Positions 10,886 through 33,543 of a DNA stretch of 35,024 nucleotides are shown one piece after another; within the stretch, counting starts at the first letter, position 1; every line of letters begins with the position of its first letter. The position numbers and the translations under genes are program-made. Source of the stretch: an uncultured Acidobacteriota bacterium (lineage in GTDB: Bacteria; Acidobacteriota; Polarisedimenticolia; Polarisedimenticolales; Polarisedimenticolaceae). The DNA is taken from the NCBI GenBank assembly GCA_945787955.1, contig CALZKF010000007.1:12057-47080 (forward strand), in the 5' to 3' direction. A model generated the notes under the pieces. The model did no database searches and had not been told where the DNA came from. It saw only the letters and a program-made list of their open reading frames with translations.

Positions 10886-13822
10886 ATGAAACGTCTTTTA
10901 TTGATTCTTGTGATCTCCTGCACCGTCTTTGCGGCAACAGCCGCAGACGGCACCCCGGACGAGTGGCGGACCTGGACCGAGTCCCACGACTTCCGCTCCA
11001 CCGGTTCTTACAGTGAGACATTGGAGTATCTGAAGAAGATCGAGGCCGCGCTGCCGGAGATGAATCTGACTACCTTCGGAATTTCCGGCCAGGGCCGTGA
11101 CATGCCGCTGGTGATCGTCTCAAAAGACCGGGCGTTTACGCCAAGAACCGCCGCCGCAACCGGCAAGCCGATCATCCTGATCCAGAACGGCATCCACGCC
11201 GGTGAAATCGACGGCAAGGACGCATCCCTGATGATCCTCCGGGACATGGCGCTGGGCCGTGGCAAGGAACTGCTGGACAACGCCATCCTGCTGATCATCC
11301 CGATCTACAACGTGGACGGCCACGAACGGGTCTCGCCGTACTGGCGGCCGGCCCAGAACGGCCCGGTGGACGGCATGGGGTTCCGTACCAACGCTGCAGG
11401 ATTGGACCTGAACCGGGATCACCTGAAACTGGACAGCCCGGAAGCCCGGGCGGTCATCGACCTGTTCAACCGCTGGCGCCCCCACCTCCATGTGGACAAC
11501 CACGTTACCAACGGCGCCCACCACGACTGGGTGCTGACCTACGCCTTCGTGAAGGCGCCCCAGGCGGCGCCGCCCATGGCGTCCTGGGTGGAGCCGGCCA
11601 TGAACCGGATCGTGGAAGCGACCCGCAAACGCGGCCACAGCCTGGGCCCCTACGTCGATCTGCTGGACTACTCGGACCCGACGAAGGGGTTCAGCTCCTA
11701 CGTCGGCCGGGCCTGGTACGCCACCGGCTACTACCCGCTGCGCAACGTCCCTTCCATTCTGGTGGAGAACCACGCGCCCAAGCCGTACAAGGACCGGGTC
11801 CTGACCAACCGGGCATTCCTTGAAGAGATCATCCGGGAGGTCAACCGGGATCCGAAATCGCTGATGGATGCCGTCGTAGCCTCGAAGGACTACATCACCT
11901 CCGGATCATCTGAAAACATCACACTGTCCTGGTCCCGTGACGAGGAACACCCTTCTTCCATCCAGTACCCCGGCAGGGACTGGAACATCGAAACCAGCGT
12001 CGCCACCGGCGACCCGGTGCTGCTGTACGACGACTCCAAACCGAAACCGATGGATGTTCCCTGGGTGAACCGGGCCAGAGCCGACAAGACGGCGCCGCGG
12101 CCACTGGGGTATCTCATCCAGCCCGGCTGGCCGGAGATCGAAGAGCGTCTTCGGCGCCATGATCTGGAATTCGTCAAACTCACCCGACCTGCAACTCTCG
12201 AAGTCGACACCCTGCGGGTATCCAACTCCCTGTATCGTCCCGGGTCCTACCAGGGCCGCAACATGGTTGGCTACGATCTTGAGGTGCGACGGGAAACCCG
12301 CACCGTACCGGTCGGCACCCTGTTCATTGCAGCAGGCCAACCGGACTTTGCACTGGCCGTGCAGCTTCTGGAACCGGACAGCCCCGACTCCCTGGCTTCC
12401 TGGGGAATGATGGCTTCTGCCCTGGAGTGGAAGGAGTACATCTCCCCGTCGGTGCTGGAACCGAAGGTCCGCAGATTGCTGGAGGAGGATCCCGCGCTCC
12501 GGACCGAGTGGGAAGCGGCCCTGAAAGACGAAACGTTCGCCGCCGACGGCAACGCCAGGTTCTTGTGGTGGTACACCCGCACGCCGCACTGGGATGAACA
12601 GGTCGGCATGCTGCCGGTGATGCGTCTGCCGCTTTCCGGAGATCATGAACAACTGCTGGACGCGCTGCCGCCGCTTCTCCCCGGTCCCTGGACTGCATCT
12701 CTTAAAACACCTGGTGGAATGCTCCCCTTCATGCTTGAGTTTATCCACAGCGACACCGGCCTGCAGGCGATCATCAGCAATGGGCTTGAGCGGCGGGATC
12801 CTGTTCCGGTAACGCTCACGGCAGGCGACACCTTCAGAATCACTCTGGAACCGTACGAGGCGTTCCTGAGCTTCAAAGTTCATGGTGGGCACCTGCAGGG
12901 CGAGTACAGGAAGCGACTGGGCGACAACAAATGGCGCAAGCTTCCGCTGGACGCCACCGTGGGGAGCGCTGCAATGCCTTCACTGCTTGACTGTGAGGAG
13001 GATGCGCTATCGGGCCGCTGGCAGGTTCAGTTCGAGAACGATCCCGTGCCTTCGGTCGGCATGTTCAGGCCGGCGCCGGGAGAGTGCCGCATCCAGGGCA
13101 CCTTCCTCAATGCCACCGGCGATTACCGCTATCTTGCTGGAGATGCCTATGGCGGCCACCTCTCTCTCTCCACCTTCGACGGCGCCCACACCTTCCTGTT
13201 CAAGGCAGAGCTGCAGGATGACGGCACCCTGAAAGGCGATTTCTGGTCCGGCGATTCGTACCACGAGACATGGACCGCCAGGAAAGATCCGGACGCCGCG
13301 CTGCCCGACCCGTTCGGGCAGACAACATGGTCCGGCACAGTGCAGCTATCCGAACTGAAGTTCCCCGACCTTGATGGGAATATCCGGTCCCTGGCCGATC
13401 CGGCGTTCCACGGGAAGGCCCGGATCATCGAGGTCATGGGGACATGGTGCCCCAACTGCAACGACGCCACCGCCGACCTGGTGAAGCTGGACAGGAAGTA
13501 CCGGGATCGGGGGCTGTCCATCGTTGCCCTGGCGTTCGAAGTCAGCGGCGAGTTCGCTACCGACTCCGCCCAGGTAAAACGATATGTGGAGCACCATGGG
13601 ATCGAGTTCCCGGTATTGCTCGCCGGAGAAGCGGACAAGGACACAGCCACCGAAGCGGTCCAAGGTCTGGACCAGGTGCGCTCGTTCCCCACGACGATCT
13701 TCCTGGATCGGGACGGCAACGTCCGTGCGGTGCACTCAGGCTACAGCGGACCGGCCACCGGCGATGCGTACCAGGATCAACTGAAAAAATACGAAACGCT
13801 CATCGAGTCGCTGTTGCAGTAG
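10886..13822 (+). CDS. Secreted M14 carboxypeptidase fused to a TlpA-like thiol-disulfide redoxin
   Basis: This 978-residue exported protein has a signal peptide (residues 1-20, ending FAATAA). The peptidase M14 domain (about 35-330) carries zinc ligands H104 and E107 in IHAGEIDG, H206 in HVDNHVTNG, an NR pair at N176-R177 and catalytic Glu294 in SILVENHAP. From about residue 595 the sequence reads like a complete TlpA-type protein. It starts with a beta-rich domain (GDYRYLAGDAYGG, STFDGAHTFLFKAEL, GDFWSGDSYHETW), then the thioredoxin fold with redox pair C855-P-N-C858 and the cis-proline loop SFPTTIFLD. The frame is continuous throughout. It likely acts outside the cytoplasmic membrane. The ATG has GAGGA upstream. 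Its 3' end overlaps the convergent PDZ gene by 23 nt. Confidence 0.9.
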   Translation: MKRLLLILVISCTVFAATAADGTPDEWRTWTESHDFRSTGSYSETLEYLKKIEAALPEMNLTTFGISGQGRDMPLVIVSKDRAFTPRTAAATGKPIILIQNGIHAGEIDGKDASLMILRDMALGRGKELLDNAILLIIPIYNVDGHERVSPYWRPAQNGPVDGMGFRTNAAGLDLNRDHLKLDSPEARAVIDLFNRWRPHLHVDNHVTNGAHHDWVLTYAFVKAPQAAPPMASWVEPAMNRIVEATRKRGHSLGPYVDLLDYSDPTKGFSSYVGRAWYATGYYPLRNVPSILVENHAPKPYKDRVLTNRAFLEEIIREVNRDPKSLMDAVVASKDYITSGSSENITLSWSRDEEHPSSIQYPGRDWNIETSVATGDPVLLYDDSKPKPMDVPWVNRARADKTAPRPLGYLIQPGWPEIEERLRRHDLEFVKLTRPATLEVDTLRVSNSLYRPGSYQGRNMVGYDLEVRRETRTVPVGTLFIAAGQPDFALAVQLLEPDSPDSLASWGMMASALEWKEYISPSVLEPKVRRLLEEDPALRTEWEAALKDETFAADGNARFLWWYTRTPHWDEQVGMLPVMRLPLSGDHEQLLDALPPLLPGPWTASLKTPGGMLPFMLEFIHSDTGLQAIISNGLERRDPVPVTLTAGDTFRITLEPYEAFLSFKVHGGHLQGEYRKRLGDNKWRKLPLDATVGSAAMPSLLDCEEDALSGRWQVQFENDPVPSVGMFRPAPGECRIQGTFLNATGDYRYLAGDAYGGHLSLSTFDGAHTFLFKAELQDDGTLKGDFWSGDSYHETWTARKDPDAALPDPFGQTTWSGTVQLSELKFPDLDGNIRSLADPAFHGKARIIEVMGTWCPNCNDATADLVKLDRKYRDRGLSIVALAFEVSGEFATDSAQVKRYVEHHGIEFPVLLAGEADKDTATEAVQGLDQVRSFPTTIFLDRDGNVRAVHSGYSGPATGDAYQDQLKKYETLIESLLQ

Positions 13823-24942: not shown

Positions 24943-25539
24943 TCAAAGACTCATGGTGCCTGTGGACAACCACCGCCAGCACGGTGCGCACAACCGGATC
25001 TTTTTGGTATCGAGATCCTGGAGGTTTCTGGTGGACGCATTGCCGCAGCGCGGATCGCCGCAATCCGGCAGGCCGACCAGTTGCCCTGCGCACCGCAGGA
25101 TCTCCTTGGCAAGCCTGGCCTTCTGTTTGTCCGGATCCGATTTCCGCCGATAAAAAGCTTCCCGCATCCGTTTTACCGAAACCAGCCCGGCCTTTCCCGC
25201 CGCTCCGGTCAGGCTGAAGACGAACTCCGTGTCATGCGTGTACATGTCCACGTCGGTGACCAGGACCAGGCAGGCCCTGCCCGCCCCTTCGACGCCTGAA
25301 TCGTCAACACCGATGTCCGATACTTTGCCCGCCCGCCCGCCGGCCAGGCTCAGCGAGGTCAGCAGTACAGCCGCCTTGTGTTGCCCCCGGGCAACATCCT
25401 CGGACCCACGTGGAAGGGGCACCACCTCCCGGAACTCCACCGGGCCTTTCAGCGCCTTGGCCACCAGGTGCAAGGCTGCTGCCACATCGGCCGGATCGAT
25501 CCGGCCCGCCGGCGCCACCGCAAGTTGGATTACCGCCAT
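24943..25539 (-). CDS. Archaemetzincin-like protein lacking the catalytic HEXXH motif
   Basis: This 198-residue protein has the archaemetzincin layout: VLVTDVDMYTHDTEFVFSLTG, a Ser-Val-Lys-Arg segment resembling the ISxxRL region, then the metzincin helix. Active archaemetzincins have HEXXHXXGXXHC. Here the equivalent reads RCAGQLVGLPDC, so all three zinc-binding histidines and the catalytic glutamate are replaced. The structural zinc site is kept (CX4C, then CX2C 18 residues later; the family Met after the second Cys is absent). It is probably a non-enzymatic pseudoprotease with a binding role. The ATG at 25539 follows GGGAGG by 6 nt. It is upstream of glgC and divergent from the 1586-aa gene. 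Confidence 0.75.
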   Translation of the reverse strand: MAVIQLAVAPAGRIDPADVAAALHLVAKALKGPVEFREVVPLPRGSEDVARGQHKAAVLLTSLSLAGGRAGKVSDIGVDDSGVEGAGRACLVLVTDVDMYTHDTEFVFSLTGAAGKAGLVSVKRMREAFYRRKSDPDKQKARLAKEILRCAGQLVGLPDCGDPRCGNASTRNLQDLDTKKIRLCAPCWRWLSTGTMSL

Positions 25540-25566
25540 CGGAAACCTCCCGAAGATTGAACAGCC

Positions 25567-25592
25567 ATTGTACCCCGACCGGGGACTATAAT
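25567..25592. promoter_or_regulatory. Compact divergent promoter region
   Basis: A plus-strand TATAAT (25587-25592) lies 26 nt before the ATG of the 1586-aa gene. A minus-strand TACAAT (25572-25567) lies 27 nt before the archaemetzincin-like ATG. Both genes have a G-rich ribosome site at the expected place. The -35 positions are poor matches on both sides, and each would lie in the other promoter, so expression may depend on an activator or be mutually exclusive. Confidence 0.45.
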
Positions 25593-25618
25593 TGTTTGAT
25601 CCAACCAGCGGGGAGATC

Positions 25619-28600
25619 ATGGACGGCGCCAACACTGAACTGACCACCGCCCTCGAAATCGTGCTGGACCGCTCGCCGCAGGATGCGGCGGAGATTCTGG
25701 GCCAAGCCCTCAGGCAGGCCGCCGCCGACCCGGTAGCGGCCTCCGGTCTGGACCCGGCGATCATCACAGGCCTCGTGAACCATCGCAAGGTTGACGATGT
25801 ATTGGCGCTACTGGATCTAAAGCACCTGGCGCCCTTGGTCAAACGCTGCTGCACCCGCCTCGAGTCGGCCGGCAAGGCGCCGGCACTGCATCTGCGGGAG
25901 CAGGGCTGGGCCCTGCTGGACATCCTGCGCAGGTCCAGCCTGCTCCGCCGTCGCCCACGTGAAAAAACCGGTTGTTGGGCCGACAACATACTCGCCCTGG
26001 TGGAGCAATCCGACTTCCCCGTCGGTCCCCTGTTCCGCCTGCGGGTGGCGGCCTACGGGTCCAAGGTCCTGTTCCGAATCCACGAGCAAGGCGAAGTCCG
26101 CGCCCTGCACTGGCGGCAGGTCGCCCTGCGGGTCGAGGCGATCGCCCGAGGCCTGGTTGAACTGCACCCGGATCACGATCCGGGGCCGGTGGCGATCCTC
26201 TCGGAAAACCGATTGGAAATGGCCCTGGTAGACCTGGCCTGCCTGACCTCGGGCATCTATAACGTCATGATCCCGGCCAACTCCACCCCGGAGGATGTCG
26301 GCTTCATCCTGGACCATTCCGGGGTCGAAACGGTGGTGGTCTCCGGCACCCGGCAGTTGGCCAAGCTGGCCGGCGCCCGGGAGGCCCATGCAACGTTGAA
26401 ACATGTAGTGCTCATGGATTCGACGGCGGATCAGGCCCGGGACCTTCTGACCCTGGACATGTTGTCGGCACGAGGCAACCGGGTGCCTGCGGCGGAAATT
26501 CGGGAGCGTTCCCTGGCGGTGTCCATCGACGATCTGGCCACTACCATGTACACCTCGGGAACTACCGGAAAACCGAAAGGTATCCAGTTCACCCAGCGCA
26601 ATATCGTTTTCAAGCGCTTCGCACGGGCCCTGGCCCTTCCGGAGATTGGTGACGAAGACGTCTTCGTCTGTTACCTGCCGCTGTTCCACACTTTTGGACG
26701 ATTTCTGGAAATGCTCGGGGCCGTATTCTGGGGTGCGACTTACAACTTCGTCTTGAACCCGTCCGTTGAGACGCTGATGCGTGTCATGCAGAGCACTCTC
26801 CCCACCGTCTTCATCAGCGTGCCGAAAAAATGGATACAGCTCCACGATGCCATCATGCAGCAGGTCGACCCGATCACTGCCGGCGACGATGAGCTCAAGG
26901 CGGCGATCCGGGCGGTCACAGGCGGCCGGCTGCGCTGGGGTCTTTCCGCCGCCGGACACCTGAATTCGGAAATTTTCCGGTTTTTCCAGAGCCAGGGAGT
27001 GGAGCTGATGAGCGGTTTCGGCATGACCGAGGCCACCGGCGGCATCACCATGACCGCACCAAAAGAATACAAGGACGACTCCCTGGGGACGCCGCTTCCC
27101 GGGATTGAAATACGATTGGCCGCCGACGGCGAACTCCTGATTCGGGGCCCGTACGTCATGGCCGGATACCTCAACCCCCCTGAAGGTGAAGCTGAAATCG
27201 ATTCCGAAGGATGGTTCCCCAGCGGTGATCTGATGGAGATGGACCGGGACGGCTACATCAGGCTGGTGGACCGCAAAAAGGAAATCTACAAGAACATCAA
27301 GGGGGAAACGATCGCTCCCCAGAGAGTCGAGAACCCTTTCAGGGATTTCGAGTCCGTGGGCCGCGTGTTTCTGGTAGGTGACCACCGGGAATACAACACA
27401 GCCTTGATTTGGCCGAATCCGGAATACGCCGCCAAGGAGCTGGCCGGCCTGGATATCGGCGAAGTCAAGGCTCACTTCCGCTCGGTTGTGATCTCCGTCA
27501 ACAAGTTCCTGGCGCCGTTCGAGCGGATCGTTGATTTCGCCATCATCGATCGGGACCTGGACCCTGAAAAGGGCGAACTGACCCCTAAGGGCACACCCCG
27601 GCGGCGGACGGTAGAGGCCAATTTCGCCGAGGTCATAAAACGACTCTATCGCCGGACCATCCTCCACGTCGGCGGTCAGGACATAATCGTACCGAACTGG
27701 CTGTTCCAGGCTCTCGGTCTTGTGGCCCAGGACCTGGTGATCCGGGACAACCGCATCAGCCTCCCGTCCTCCGACCGCATGCTCACGGTGGAACGGATCG
27801 AAGACGGCCTGACCCGGGTCGGATCGTGCATTTACCGCCACCGCCCCGGCCCGCTGGAGATCGGTTCCCTGCTGACCGTGACGGCACTGTGGCTGGGCAA
27901 CGGGGAGATGGTCGATTTCATAGGGCTGGATCTGGCCCCCTTCGAGCGGCCGGGCCGGATCCGGGAGGGATTGTCCTGGCAGGGGTACTCCGACGATCTG
28001 GACGCCCCGCCGCAGATCGGCGAACGGCTCAGTGAACTCATCAATCTGGACAGCCCGGACATGGCGGACCTGCATATCGCCGCCATCGCCATATCCGCCG
28101 GGAGCAGCCATGACGGCCTGACCGCCATCGACTTCCTGAACAAGACGGTGACCGGCCAGGACGGCATCCTGGCCGACCCGGCTCGCCTGTTGCTGGCTCG
28201 AGCGGCCTATTCCGGCCACGAGGCGGTTCGTAAACGAAGTTTCCAGGTCCTGGCGCCGGTAGAGAAGGACGCCGCATTCCCGGAAACCCTGGGGATCTAC
28301 TTGACCCACGCCGGTGATGTGTTGGACGCCGAGACCCGGGAGAGTGTCTGCGAGGGAACGCTTTCTTCCGCAAAGCTGAGGGCGTTCTTCGCAGCAGCCA
28401 CCGAACTGTGTGAGGCCGATTCGATCGCCCCCGGCAACCAGGACCTGACCCGCCGGATCCTGCGGTTGCTGAGCGATTACGGTACGTTCCATCCCACCAG
28501 TTACTCAGAGGTCCGTGCGTTCCTGGCAAGGGAGATGATGTTCGCCGTCAGCGAGGATGTGAGGAACTATGCCGGTGATGCCTTCCAGCACCTGGTGGAC

Positions 28601-30379
28601 GGGTTCCGCCAGTGGCTGGGGCCACCCTCCCGCATCGCCGTCGACCCGGAGACCGGCCAGGAGTATCGCTGGGCCGATGTAGTGGTATTCGATGACATGG
28701 TCCCGGAAAACGACCGACTGAGAATGCTCAGCGCCCTGCAGAAAACCCCGTTCCTACGCGAGGCGGTATTTTTGTTCTCGAAAGGCGTTACCATCCGTCT
28801 CAACGACATTCCCCCCGGAGGAGTATTCATCCGCCTTCTGGGAAGCAATCACGGTAAGTCGGTATATCGCGCCACGGTCCAAACCCGCTTCAAAGGCTCC
28901 TTCGACCTCGCCGTGAATATCAACCACGACCTGACCCAGGAAGAGGTCCGGGAAGAGATATTCTGGCTGATCCTGTGCGGCGAGTCGCCTCAATTGCCGG
29001 CCCTGGCCGAGGAATTCGGCGGCTACTGGCAGGCCCAGGATCTCTGGAGCGAGGAGTTCATCGCCGGCGAAACCCTGGACCGGGCGATGCGGCGGCTGTC
29101 CCGCCGAGGCGCCGGCGGCGAACGGCTGGAAAACATCTGGCCGTTCCTGGCCTGGACCACCTTGAACGCCTATGTGGACTTCTGGCACCGTACCGGAACC
29201 CGCTGGGAAATCAGTGATCCGGAGATGCCCAACGTGGTCGCGTCGACACACGATTACCAGACCAGTGCCAGGCTGGTATCGGTCACCCGCCGGCAGAGGC
29301 ACCGGGGACTCGGCCCGATGCTGATCCGACTCATGGACCGCCTGCTGCTGGGGGTCGAGGACACCTACCCCCGCCTCAAGGGTCTGGTCGGGTGGCACAC
29401 AGTCCTGTCCTCGGTGCTGGAAGTGCTCGGGGAGGCTGAAGGTCTCACCGCTCTGAAGGAATTGGCGGGCAACCCGATCCGGGAAGACCTGGACGAGGCT
29501 TTGCCCCGGTTCCTTGAAGAGGTGGAACAGGACGGTTTCACGCCCCTGAAGGTTTTCTTCGCCATAGAACGGTACCGCCGGTGGGCCGAGCTGAGCTCGG
29601 ATCCGACGCCTGAGGCACGGGCCCGGACACTCCGGGAACTGTTCGAGACCTACGGTCTGGCCGCAGTCGTCGGAAACCAGCCGGAGACCCGGGTGCGGTT
29701 CTTCCGCAAAACGGTGTTCCAGAGTGGCGGGCAGTTGGAGACCGGCCTCAGGGAGATTGAAGCACGCCTTCGCAACCGGGCCATCCCACCTGACGATGTC
29801 GCCGACAGCATCGCCGACCTCAGGGGCAACAAGGAGTTGAGCGACGACGAGGACTACTTCCTGGCGCGTCTTTCATTCCCCCACCTCCGACCGGAAGACG
29901 CCGCCACCTTCGTGGAAGCCGATTTCGGTGGCCGCCAAACGAGCGAAGTGGTGGTCAAACAGGAGGACCGGGAAGGGAACCCGTTCCGGATTCGACATGC
30001 TCTGAATCCAAGGGAAGTCGGCCGGCTGCACCGCCTGTTCCTGGCGGCCAAACTGGACGTTCGATTCCGAATGGAGCACCAGTACCTGGTCGCCCTCAAT
30101 CAACGCACCCAGGTCATCGGCGGCATCTTCTACGAGGTCGGCGAGGGGGAGGATACCGCCCATCTCGAGAAGATCGTCGTAGCTGAGGCGTACCGCCGCG
30201 CCGGCGTGGCCGACGCCCTGATGCACGAGTTGTTCAACCGGTTGCAGGCCGCCGGATATCAGACCGTCACCACCGGCTTCTTCCGGCCGGAGTATTTTTA
30301 CGCCTACGGCTTCACCATCGAGAAGCGGTATGCCGGGTTGGTCAAAACGCTGCATTCGGCGGAAGAAGAGAAAGGCTGA
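25619..30379 (+). CDS. Giant adenylate-forming enzyme with kinase-like segment and C-terminal GNAT domain
   Basis: This is a 1586-residue cytoplasmic protein. Residues about 130-680 form an AMP-binding (acyl-CoA synthetase-like) domain: YTSGTTGKPKG at 311-321, GFGMTEATGG near 466, GDLMEMDRDGYIRLVDRKKEIYK hinge region and a C-terminal Lys in GELTPKG. The next 380 residues are helical and unassigned. At about 1075-1260, GSNHGKSVYR, WSEEFIAGETL and a DPEMPNVVAST-type segment resemble an aminoglycoside phosphotransferase/protein-kinase fold, though degenerate. Residues about 1470-1586 are a GNAT domain (LEKIVVAEAYRRAGVADALM, YFYAYGF). No carrier-protein domain is obvious. The ATG at 25619 follows GGGGAG; an upstream TTG at 25592 is unlikely because it falls in the -10 box. 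The sigma factor gene begins 1 nt after its stop. Confidence 0.85.
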   Translation: MDGANTELTTALEIVLDRSPQDAAEILGQALRQAAADPVAASGLDPAIITGLVNHRKVDDVLALLDLKHLAPLVKRCCTRLESAGKAPALHLREQGWALLDILRRSSLLRRRPREKTGCWADNILALVEQSDFPVGPLFRLRVAAYGSKVLFRIHEQGEVRALHWRQVALRVEAIARGLVELHPDHDPGPVAILSENRLEMALVDLACLTSGIYNVMIPANSTPEDVGFILDHSGVETVVVSGTRQLAKLAGAREAHATLKHVVLMDSTADQARDLLTLDMLSARGNRVPAAEIRERSLAVSIDDLATTMYTSGTTGKPKGIQFTQRNIVFKRFARALALPEIGDEDVFVCYLPLFHTFGRFLEMLGAVFWGATYNFVLNPSVETLMRVMQSTLPTVFISVPKKWIQLHDAIMQQVDPITAGDDELKAAIRAVTGGRLRWGLSAAGHLNSEIFRFFQSQGVELMSGFGMTEATGGITMTAPKEYKDDSLGTPLPGIEIRLAADGELLIRGPYVMAGYLNPPEGEAEIDSEGWFPSGDLMEMDRDGYIRLVDRKKEIYKNIKGETIAPQRVENPFRDFESVGRVFLVGDHREYNTALIWPNPEYAAKELAGLDIGEVKAHFRSVVISVNKFLAPFERIVDFAIIDRDLDPEKGELTPKGTPRRRTVEANFAEVIKRLYRRTILHVGGQDIIVPNWLFQALGLVAQDLVIRDNRISLPSSDRMLTVERIEDGLTRVGSCIYRHRPGPLEIGSLLTVTALWLGNGEMVDFIGLDLAPFERPGRIREGLSWQGYSDDLDAPPQIGERLSELINLDSPDMADLHIAAIAISAGSSHDGLTAIDFLNKTVTGQDGILADPARLLLARAAYSGHEAVRKRSFQVLAPVEKDAAFPETLGIYLTHAGDVLDAETRESVCEGTLSSAKLRAFFAAATELCEADSIAPGNQDLTRRILRLLSDYGTFHPTSYSEVRAFLAREMMFAVSEDVRNYAGDAFQHLVDGFRQWLGPPSRIAVDPETGQEYRWADVVVFDDMVPENDRLRMLSALQKTPFLREAVFLFSKGVTIRLNDIPPGGVFIRLLGSNHGKSVYRATVQTRFKGSFDLAVNINHDLTQEEVREEIFWLILCGESPQLPALAEEFGGYWQAQDLWSEEFIAGETLDRAMRRLSRRGAGGERLENIWPFLAWTTLNAYVDFWHRTGTRWEISDPEMPNVVASTHDYQTSARLVSVTRRQRHRGLGPMLIRLMDRLLLGVEDTYPRLKGLVGWHTVLSSVLEVLGEAEGLTALKELAGNPIREDLDEALPRFLEEVEQDGFTPLKVFFAIERYRRWAELSSDPTPEARARTLRELFETYGLAAVVGNQPETRVRFFRKTVFQSGGQLETGLREIEARLRNRAIPPDDVADSIADLRGNKELSDDEDYFLARLSFPHLRPEDAATFVEADFGGRQTSEVVVKQEDREGNPFRIRHALNPREVGRLHRLFLAAKLDVRFRMEHQYLVALNQRTQVIGGIFYEVGEGEDTAHLEKIVVAEAYRRAGVADALMHELFNRLQAAGYQTVTTGFFRPEYFYAYGFTIEKRYAGLVKTLHSAEEEKG

Positions 30380-30380
30380 C

Positions 30381-30956
30381 GTGGCCGATCACGAAGCAAC
30401 CGCCCTGCTCTCGCAATGGAGAAAAGGAGACGACAAGGCGCTGGACGAGCTCATGCCGCTGGTTCACGCCGAATTGCACCGGCTCGCATCCGGCTACATG
30501 AGGCACGAGAACAAGAACCATACCTTGCAGGCGACCGCCCTTATCCACGAGGCTTACATCCGGCTGATCGATCAACGCAACGTGGAATGGAAAAACTCGG
30601 TGCACTTCATCGCCCTGGCAGCCAATACCATGCGCAGGATCCTCGTGGACCATGCCCGTGGCCGGGGCAGCGCCAAACGGGGCGGCGGAATACGCGACAT
30701 ACCTCTTGAAAACGTTCACGAGGTCGCGACGGAACACAATCCGGATCTGGTTGCCCTGGACGATGCGCTCCAGGAACTCACCGGGTTGGATCCGGATCTT
30801 GCCAGGATCGTGGAACTTCGTTATTTCGGCGGATTGAACAGTGATGAAATAGCGGAGGCGATGGAGATATCCTCGCCGACCGTTACCCGTCGCATGAAAA
30901 TGGCCAGGGCCTGGTTGCACCGGTACCTGAAGGGAGATCCGGGCGATGGACGCTGA
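30381..30956 (+). CDS. ECF-type RNA polymerase sigma factor (TIGR02999-like group)
   Basis: This 191-residue sigma-70-family factor has region 2 (about residues 25-90, containing HTLQATALIHEAYIRL) and region 4 (about 135-185, LARIVELRYFGGLNSDEIAEAMEISSPTVTRRM), the latter a helix-turn-helix for the -35 element. The long region-2 insert-like stretch and HTLQATALVHEAYLRL-type signature are typical of the ECF group found next to Ser/Thr kinases in Acidobacteriota and Planctomycetes. The start is a GTG, 1 nt after the upstream stop with AAAGG at good spacing. It overlaps the kinase gene by 11 nt. No anti-sigma gene is visible, so the kinase is the likely regulator. Confidence 0.9.
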   Translation: MADHEATALLSQWRKGDDKALDELMPLVHAELHRLASGYMRHENKNHTLQATALIHEAYIRLIDQRNVEWKNSVHFIALAANTMRRILVDHARGRGSAKRGGGIRDIPLENVHEVATEHNPDLVALDDALQELTGLDPDLARIVELRYFGGLNSDEIAEAMEISSPTVTRRMKMARAWLHRYLKGDPGDGR

Positions 30957-33543
30957 AAGGTTCGCACGGGTTGAGGCGATTTTCCAGGAGGCGCTCCCCC
31001 TTTCGGGACTGGAGCGGGATGACTGTCTGGCCCGCAGGTGCGGGGACGATTCGGACCTGAAACAGCAGGTCCTGTCCCTTCTGGCCGCTCACGACCAGGC
31101 GGGCGACCTGCTGGACCGGCCGGTAGTACCCCGCAGGCCCGACCAGGGACGGCTGGCGGAAACCAGGATCGGTCCTTACAAGCTTCTGAGAAAAATCGGC
31201 GAGGGCGGTATGAGCGAGGTCTACCTCGCGGTGCGCGCCGATGACGAATACCAGAAGCGGGTCGCACTGAAGATCATCCGCCAGGACCTGGACCGTGATG
31301 AGATGCTGCGGCGGTTCCGGATCGAACGACAGATCCTGGCCGGCCTGAATCATCCCAACATCGCCACCCTGTTCGACGGCGGCACCACCGAAGACGGGCT
31401 ACCGTTTTTCGTCATGGAGTACATCGACGGCACGCCGATCGACCTGTACTGCGACGAAAACGGCCTGACCCTTCCCCGGCGCGTGGAGCTGTTCCGGTCG
31501 GTCTGTTCGGCGGTGCAGTTCGCCCATCAGAACCTGGTCATCCACCGGGACATCAAGGCGTCCAATATCCTGGTCACCGCCGACGGTACGCCCAAACTGC
31601 TGGACTTCGGGATCGCCAAGCTGATCAACCCGGACCATCTGGCCGGCGACATGGAATTCACCATCACCGGAGTCCGGCCGATGACCCCCCGTTACGCCAG
31701 CCCGGAACAGATCGAGGGACGCCAGGTTGGAACGCCCAGCGACATCTATTCCCTGGGAGTCCTGCTGTACATCCTGCTGACCGGAGTACGCCCCCACCGG
31801 CTCAAGGGCCGCCCCGCCACCGAGCTGAGCAGGATCATCCTGGAGGAAGACGCCGAACGACCAAGCACCGCCGTGGCCCGCGCCGGCAGCTCCGTGCCCA
31901 ACATCGAACCGGGGCAATTGCAGCGGCAACTGACCGGGGATCTGGACAACATCATCCTGAAGGCGCTGCGTAAACAGCCTCAGAGGCGCTACCCGTCGGT
32001 GGAACATTTCGCCGAGGATCTCCGCAGGCACCAGGCCGGGTTGCCGGTGATGGCCCGCAAAGACACCTTCGGCTACCGGGCACACAAGTTCATCCGCCGC
32101 AACCTCCTGGGCGTCAGCGCCGCGGCGGTCATCATGGCGCTGGTTGTGGCGTTCGGCGTGGTCATGGCGATCCAGGCCAACCGCATCCGCCATGAGCGGG
32201 ACCAGGCCCAGCTGGAGCGTGACCGGGCGGAGCAGGTGGTCGGCTTCATGGAAGAGATTTTCGGCGTCACCGATCCGTACGAGGCGGACGGAGAAGAATT
32301 GACGGCGTCGGAAATCCTGGAGCGCGGGGCGGCCCGTGTCACCGGCGAACTGAACGATCAGCCGATCGTTCAGGCCACTCTGTTGCAGAAGATCGGCAAC
32401 GTGTACCTCCACCTGGGGCGGTACGACCAGGCGGAACCGGCCATGAAGCAGGCCCTTGAGATCCGGCGGCGGGAACTGTCCCCCGGGCACCACGATATCG
32501 GCAGATCCCTTCAGAGCCTCGGCCTCCTCCACGCCCAGAAGGGCGATCTCGAGAAAGGCGAGCAACTGATCCGGGAGGCGGTCCGGATCCTGGTGGCCGC
32601 CGAGACGACTCCCGGTGAGTACTCGGTCAAGCCCCGGCTGGAACTGGGGGTAGTTCTACGGAAAAGCGGCCAGTACGAGGAAGCCGAACAGGTGTATACC
32701 GCCGTTCTGGAGCTGCAGCACAACTTCAAAGACGACGACGTCCTGGCGTCGGCAAAGAACAACATGGCTGCGCTTCTGGCAAGCACCGGCCGGCTGGAGG
32801 AGGCCGAGCTGATGCTCCAGGAAACCCTGGCCCTTCGCAGGAAGGTCCATAGTGACCTCCATCCCCAGACCGCCCAGGCTCTCAGCAACCTGGGCGCGGT
32901 GCTGGGCATGCAGGGAAAATACGACGAGGCGGAGCCGCACCTGCGGGAATCGCTGGCATCGTTCAGGGAAGTGCTGCCTGCCGGACATCCGTCCCTGGTG
33001 GAAGCGCTCAACAACCTGGGGAAGCTGCTGCGCAGGATGGGTAAAACGGTCGAGGCTGAACCGCTGGTGCGGGAGGCGCTGGAGATCCAGCAGTCCACAG
33101 CCGGACCGGGACATCCCCAGGTGGGGATCCTGTACGCCACACTGGCCGAACTGCTACAGGCCCAGAAGCGCTATGACGAGGCGGAAGACAGTATCCGCAA
33201 GGCGGTCGCCATCTCCAAAGCGGCCTATTCCGGGCCCCACGTCAGCACGGGCAACGCCCTCATCCGCCAGGGCATGCTCACCATGGACCAGGGGATGCCG
33301 GAAGATGCCGAGCCGCTTTACCGGGAGGCACGGGAGATTTACCAGGCGACCCTGGCGGAAGGCCACTGGAAGCATGGCGGCGCTGAGAGCCGGCTGGGCG
33401 AAAGCCTGGCCGCCCAGGGCAAGCTGGAAGAAGGACTGGCCCTCATGCGGTCCGGACTGGCCACCCTGGAGGCCGGACTGGGCCCGGATCACCCCGGCAC
33501 CCGGGAGGCCAGGGAGCGGTTGGATCGGATCCGCCACCCATAA
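30946..33543 (+). CDS. Transmembrane Ser/Thr protein kinase with C-terminal TPR array
   Basis: This 865-residue membrane kinase has the kinase domain at about 78-355: glycine loop IGEGGMSEV (84-92), Lys109, catalytic HRDIK (200-204), DFG (220-222) and TPRYASPEQ activation end. One transmembrane helix lies at about 388-408 (VSAAAVIMALVVAFGVVMAIQ). Roughly nine TPRs of about 42 residues, kinesin light chain type, follow to the end and should face the outside of the cytoplasmic membrane. It probably senses an envelope signal and phosphorylates cytoplasmic targets, possibly the sigma factor whose gene it overlaps by 11 nt. All catalytic residues are present. Confidence 0.94.
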   Translation: MDAERFARVEAIFQEALPLSGLERDDCLARRCGDDSDLKQQVLSLLAAHDQAGDLLDRPVVPRRPDQGRLAETRIGPYKLLRKIGEGGMSEVYLAVRADDEYQKRVALKIIRQDLDRDEMLRRFRIERQILAGLNHPNIATLFDGGTTEDGLPFFVMEYIDGTPIDLYCDENGLTLPRRVELFRSVCSAVQFAHQNLVIHRDIKASNILVTADGTPKLLDFGIAKLINPDHLAGDMEFTITGVRPMTPRYASPEQIEGRQVGTPSDIYSLGVLLYILLTGVRPHRLKGRPATELSRIILEEDAERPSTAVARAGSSVPNIEPGQLQRQLTGDLDNIILKALRKQPQRRYPSVEHFAEDLRRHQAGLPVMARKDTFGYRAHKFIRRNLLGVSAAAVIMALVVAFGVVMAIQANRIRHERDQAQLERDRAEQVVGFMEEIFGVTDPYEADGEELTASEILERGAARVTGELNDQPIVQATLLQKIGNVYLHLGRYDQAEPAMKQALEIRRRELSPGHHDIGRSLQSLGLLHAQKGDLEKGEQLIREAVRILVAAETTPGEYSVKPRLELGVVLRKSGQYEEAEQVYTAVLELQHNFKDDDVLASAKNNMAALLASTGRLEEAELMLQETLALRRKVHSDLHPQTAQALSNLGAVLGMQGKYDEAEPHLRESLASFREVLPAGHPSLVEALNNLGKLLRRMGKTVEAEPLVREALEIQQSTAGPGHPQVGILYATLAELLQAQKRYDEAEDSIRKAVAISKAAYSGPHVSTGNALIRQGMLTMDQGMPEDAEPLYREAREIYQATLAEGHWKHGGAESRLGESLAAQGKLEEGLALMRSGLATLEAGLGPDHPGTREARERLDRIRHP

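Follow-up and report, generated by a model that had tools for sequence, protein, structure and literature searches.

A probable gene fusion joining an M14 carboxypeptidase to a ResA/TlpA-like redoxin in a marine-sediment acidobacterium

One open reading frame in the stretch of DNA analyzed here (35,024 nucleotides, hereafter the window) encodes an M14 metallocarboxypeptidase that runs on into a beta domain and a ResA/TlpA-like thioredoxin domain. Very probably this is a genuine gene fusion, although it is seen in one assembly, and most likely a recent fusion of two genes that in relatives stand side by side as an apparently operon-like pair. As an explanation of the whole we lean toward a fusion specific to this lineage, giving a periplasmic enzyme that would both reduce and trim proteins taken as food. 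The host, known from a metagenome-assembled genome (MAG) of 3.8 Mb, is a marine-sediment member of the family Ca. Polarisedimenticolaceae in the Acidobacteriota. The phylum was sampled with 396 genomes. The relatives that matter most are one of the same genus (G001, Candidatus Polarisedimenticola svalbardensis MAG AM4, family Polarisedimenticolaceae) and three from other genera of the family (G003, G004 and G005). Alignments comprised 19 M14 sequences and 18 redoxin sequences.

Domain architecture of the fused protein

The features of the fused gene are given in Table 1. The frame runs from ATG to TAG through 978 codons without interruption, a purine-rich GAGGAA lies a few bases 5' of the ATG, and codon-position composition is alike along the frame on both sides of the junction. 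With one open frame and Pfam matches to both parts, the claim in the preliminary description that a single polypeptide holds an M14 and a thioredoxin-type domain is borne out. An AlphaFold model of the full-length protein (mean pLDDT 86.5, pTM 0.64) matched carboxypeptidases and ResA when compared with the PDB using Foldseek.

Table 1. Features of the fused gene (positions in the window; residues of the fused protein)
Feature	Positions	Strand	Residues	Basis
Fused ORF: M14 carboxypeptidase + beta domain + ResA/TlpA-like thioredoxin	10886..13822	+	978 aa	Pfam
N-terminal signal peptide (MKRLLLILVISCTVFAATA-ADG), read as signal peptidase I type	10886..10951	+		Direct reading by eye
M14 metallocarboxypeptidase catalytic domain	10964..11900	+	~27-338	PF00246, invariant residues, Foldseek
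C-terminal accessory region of M14 protein	11901..12631	+	~339-582	Alignment; kept in stand-alone relatives
Fusion junction, codons 66 nt apart	12623..12691	+	R580 to W602	Comparison with G003, G004, G005
Accessory beta domain, two successive 8-stranded antiparallel units	12674..13315	+	~597-810	Alignment, model
ResA/TlpA-like thioredoxin domain	13331..13819	+	~816-978	Pfam, NCBIfam, alignment, Foldseek

The protein had also been described as exported. In favor of this is a signal-peptide-like N-terminus, read by eye as about the first 19-20 residues. The residues VISC, which end at residue 12, resemble a lipobox; they are very near the start and are not present in the homolog from the same genus. 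The M14 signal peptide should bring the fused protein into the periplasm in soluble form.

The Pfam family Peptidase_M14 (PF00246) matches residues 46-181 (E 2.2e-16, 60.8 bits against a cut-off of 21.6), and the M14 half matches carboxypeptidases in Foldseek with E-values down to 8e-11, so that both profile and fold place it among M14 proteins. The zinc ligands (H104, E107 and H206) and the catalytic glutamate (E294) are at exactly the positions first described and are invariant in all 19 aligned sequences. N176 and R177 are invariant too; in the alignment they correspond to the residue pair by which carboxypeptidases bind the carboxylate of the substrate. The M14 half is thus predicted to be a metallocarboxypeptidase with a complete set of catalytic residues. 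Its C-terminal accessory region has no match in Pfam. Stand-alone exported M14 proteins of about 600 residues, found in Acidobacteriota, have the zinc ligands, catalytic glutamate, N-R pair and C-terminal region in common with it (36-53% identity outside the genus), but they stop at about residue 582-600 whereas the window protein continues into the redoxin. Comparison of the M14 part with its homolog in the same genus gave a dN of 0.085 and a dS of 0.51, indicating purifying selection.

In the other half, the Redoxin and AhpC-TSA families match residues ~823-955 (E 2.8e-10 and 3.8e-9, above the curated cut-offs). The motif CPNC at residues 855-858 is invariant in 18 of 18 redoxin sequences, and FPT at 934-936 probably supplies the cis-proline (residue 935). 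The domain therefore has a CxxC site in a thioredoxin fold together with a cis-Pro loop, and it matched the structure of ResA. Scores against NCBIfam models are nevertheless far below the curated cut-offs for ResA (50.8 against 170), TlpA (29.8 against 230) and DsbE, so the domain is ResA-like rather than ResA. ResA (1su9) and TlpA (1jfu) share the thioredoxin-like fold and CxxC site but are single-domain, membrane-anchored proteins, and their roles in cytochrome maturation are not implied for the fused protein.

Over its whole length of ~385 residues the redoxin half is homologous to a family of stand-alone redoxins of ResA/TlpA type (about 405 residues, often lipoproteins) in Bacteroidota and Acidobacteriota, which likewise combine a beta domain with a CxxC thioredoxin (34-49% identity, CPNC invariant). 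The beta domain and CPNC thioredoxin that had been placed from about residue 595 are accordingly upheld, and so is the statement that this beta domain is usual in stand-alone TlpA-like proteins, since it aligns as part of that family. The window redoxin differs in that it is not a separate gene: it has lost its own export signal and is joined to the M14 C-terminus. The stand-alone family occurs widely among Bacteroidota and patchily among Acidobacteriota, and has the conserved motifs GTF..TGD.R.L.G and LS.FD.

Modeled alone, the beta domain gave two successive eight-stranded beta units with a pLDDT of 88.8. No Pfam family matches it, a profile search of solved structures returned only a doubtful match to angiotensinogen, and Foldseek matches were weak and lipocalin-like; their TM-scores are low, so any assignment of the fold is tentative. 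The domain has cysteines at residues 703 and 734 (window positions 12992-13087) that are absent from all 17 stand-alone redoxins in the alignment. These two might form a structural disulfide gained with or after the fusion.

The junction and the two-gene locus of relatives

In G003, G004 and G005 the M14 protein and the redoxin are encoded by separate, adjacent and co-oriented genes at the same locus. The M14 stop overlaps the redoxin ATG by 4 nt in G004 (ATGA); the G005 stop shares 4 nt with a GTG (GTGA), and a redoxin ATG is 6 nt downstream. The G003 redoxin shares the frame of the M14 gene and comes after a TGA and about 36 nt. From its gene order and spacing the pair in these relatives looks operon-like. 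A search had returned an open frame of 1063 aa for G003, as if the fusion were present there too, but this was rejected because direct translation shows the TGA and a new lipoprotein-type start.

Each of the three separate redoxins starts with a hydrophobic stretch that ends in a cysteine (TAAC, LSGC and LPAC) and reads as a lipoprotein-type signal, and many other stand-alone redoxins start likewise. Unlike the fused protein, the stand-alone redoxin of relatives thus appears to be lipid-anchored.

The last conserved M14 codon (R580, at 12623) and the first conserved redoxin codon (W602, at 12689) lie 66 nt apart in the window, against 146 nt for the equivalent distance in G005, 224 nt in G004 and 186 nt in G003. 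The interval in the relatives holds a stop codon and a lipoprotein-type signal. Inspection of all three frames of the window junction revealed no remnant of either; because both are gone, the junction points to a clean in-frame joining rather than to a read-through stop or a single-base frameshift. A net loss of about 80-158 nt would have taken out the stop that ends the M14 gene, together with the export signal of the redoxin gene, while keeping the frame, leaving one protein that would be exported via the M14 signal peptide. No direct repeats were found flanking the junction, and viral contigs contained no exact match to it.

The preliminary description had suggested looking for the same architecture elsewhere. 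A single polypeptide with both halves is encoded in the window's own genome and, among the matches listed, in no other of the 396 Acidobacteriota genomes; nor was any description of an M14-redoxin fusion found in the literature searched. The genome of the same genus is silent on the point. Its assembly has a gap that covers the junction and the genes after it (contig C150 stops at residue 530 of the M14 protein and C20 resumes about 3.7 kb on), and since the gap falls exactly there, the fusion rests on one assembly.

Could the organism have two genes that were joined by a local deletion of ~80-160 bp in the assembly? The MAG, which is in 346 contigs, has a completeness of 87%, the assembly from the same genus is interrupted at this very locus, and all three other family members with the pair have two genes. 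Such an artefact would, however, have had to hit the right frame (about one chance in three) and to make a clean removal of the stop codon and all of the signal sequence while sparing conserved residues on either side, and it would have done so where there are no nearby direct repeats to promote collapse. Moreover, synteny with the three relatives extends on either side of the locus, with a DinB gene upstream and genes for a putative esterase and a molybdopterin oxidoreductase nearby. We therefore consider an assembly artefact improbable. A chimeric contig, at the scale of the contig, is rejected by the same synteny. Separate genes in relatives, together with a read-level error at the junction, had been named in advance as counting against a fusion. 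Separate genes do exist in G003, G004 and G005, but they are most simply read as the ancestral state and so are not evidence of error.

Possible roles of the joined activities

The redoxin family is present in 39 of the 396 genomes, which made it possible to ask how far the partnership extends. Outside the Ca. Polarisedimenticolaceae, the short flanks of 23 further Acidobacteriota redoxin loci contained no M14 gene, there was none within up to 6 kb of the redoxins at 79 loci outside the phylum, and no redoxin was found beside the M14 genes examined outside the family. Two genomes (G047 and G054) have the redoxin with no M14 match, and in many others the halves are unlinked or one occurs without the other. 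Pairing of the two genes was seen only in the Ca. Polarisedimenticolaceae, so the partnership is a feature of this family and not of either enzyme family.

What might the fused protein do? The genome encodes one CcdA/DsbD-type membrane protein, which could recharge the CPNC site of the thioredoxin domain. The latter would open disulfides in incoming proteins or peptides, the M14 domain would remove C-terminal residues from the opened chains, and the outcome would be digestion of disulfide-bonded proteinaceous food in the periplasm. The genus of the window organism is described as protein-degrading, and Ca. P. svalbardensis has seven predicted secreted proteases or peptidases and likely uses proteins as nutrients (PMC8528874). 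We infer the location, activity, electron source and substrate alike, and offer this mechanism, in which one molecule combines disulfide reduction with C-terminal trimming, as the simplest reading but a tentative prediction. A tighter version, a periplasmic 'reduce-and-trim' machine in which the CcdA-fed thioredoxin domain hands the opened chain to the covalently attached carboxypeptidase, is more doubtful.

Nearly as likely as the protein-feeding mechanism, though on balance also unlikely, is a neutral event in which neighboring genes were joined and each domain still serves its own clients, the two activities being uncoupled. Co-oriented neighbors fuse easily, and in most genomes the M14 and redoxin genes are unlinked and each is found without the other. 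Against this, the pair has stayed adjacent in three further genera at only ~43-51% protein identity, with overlapping stops and starts in two of them, and this adds support to a functional link between the halves. The earlier proposal that peptide trimming is joined to disulfide reduction is thus strengthened by the adjacent, operon-like genes within the family, but the link is weak outside it.

Less likely again is a dedicated substrate in place of food protein, whether a disulfide-bonded peptide, a cell-wall peptide or a particular secreted protein. Some M14 enzymes process peptidoglycan peptides or specific peptides, and the gene pairing is tight within one family, both of which would suit such a role. 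The neighbors scanned near the fused gene (MscS, a PDZ protein, DinB, the esterase and the molybdopterin oxidoreductase), however, included no recognizable precursor-peptide, cell-wall or maturation gene. The cell-wall substrate named in the preliminary description is not supported: nothing pointing to it was found, and what has been published on the physiology of the genus indicates feeding on protein (PMC8528874).

That the redoxin domain keeps the M14 domain reduced, or acts on it as a redox switch, is extremely improbable, because cysteine is absent from the mature M14 part of the fused protein and from those of G001 (first 530 residues), G003, G004 and G031 (signal peptides excluded). The redoxin thus neither serves nor switches the M14 domain by its thiols, and its client lies elsewhere. 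There is precedent for such control in redoxins fused to the enzymes they serve, for instance PilB, a thioredoxin-MsrA-MsrB protein. PilB/MsrAB-type fusions likewise hold an enzyme and a TlpA-like reductant within a single exported chain, but the partner enzyme is a different one and, unlike in the window fusion, the reductant recycles that enzyme itself.

Should the fusion prove genuine, it would be a 'Rosetta stone' clue tying an uncharacterized M14 family that is widespread among Acidobacteriota to a likewise widespread redoxin family of unknown client, and would suggest that both help sediment bacteria to digest proteins held by disulfide bonds. Its reach is limited, since two ordinary enzymes were joined in a single lineage; it is a modest, local variation on known parts which hints that both enzymes act together.

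Three further frames in the window were noted. A frame of 1595 aa (25592-30379) has an AMP-binding, acyl-CoA synthetase-like region at residues 157-688 and a GNAT acetyltransferase domain at ~1490-1575, separated by a long middle stretch with no Pfam match. A frame of 348 aa (24943-25989) has a Peptidase_M54 (archaemetzincin-like) domain in its C-terminal part, and a protein of 865 aa (30946-33543) has a protein kinase part and, after it, a long array of TPRs.
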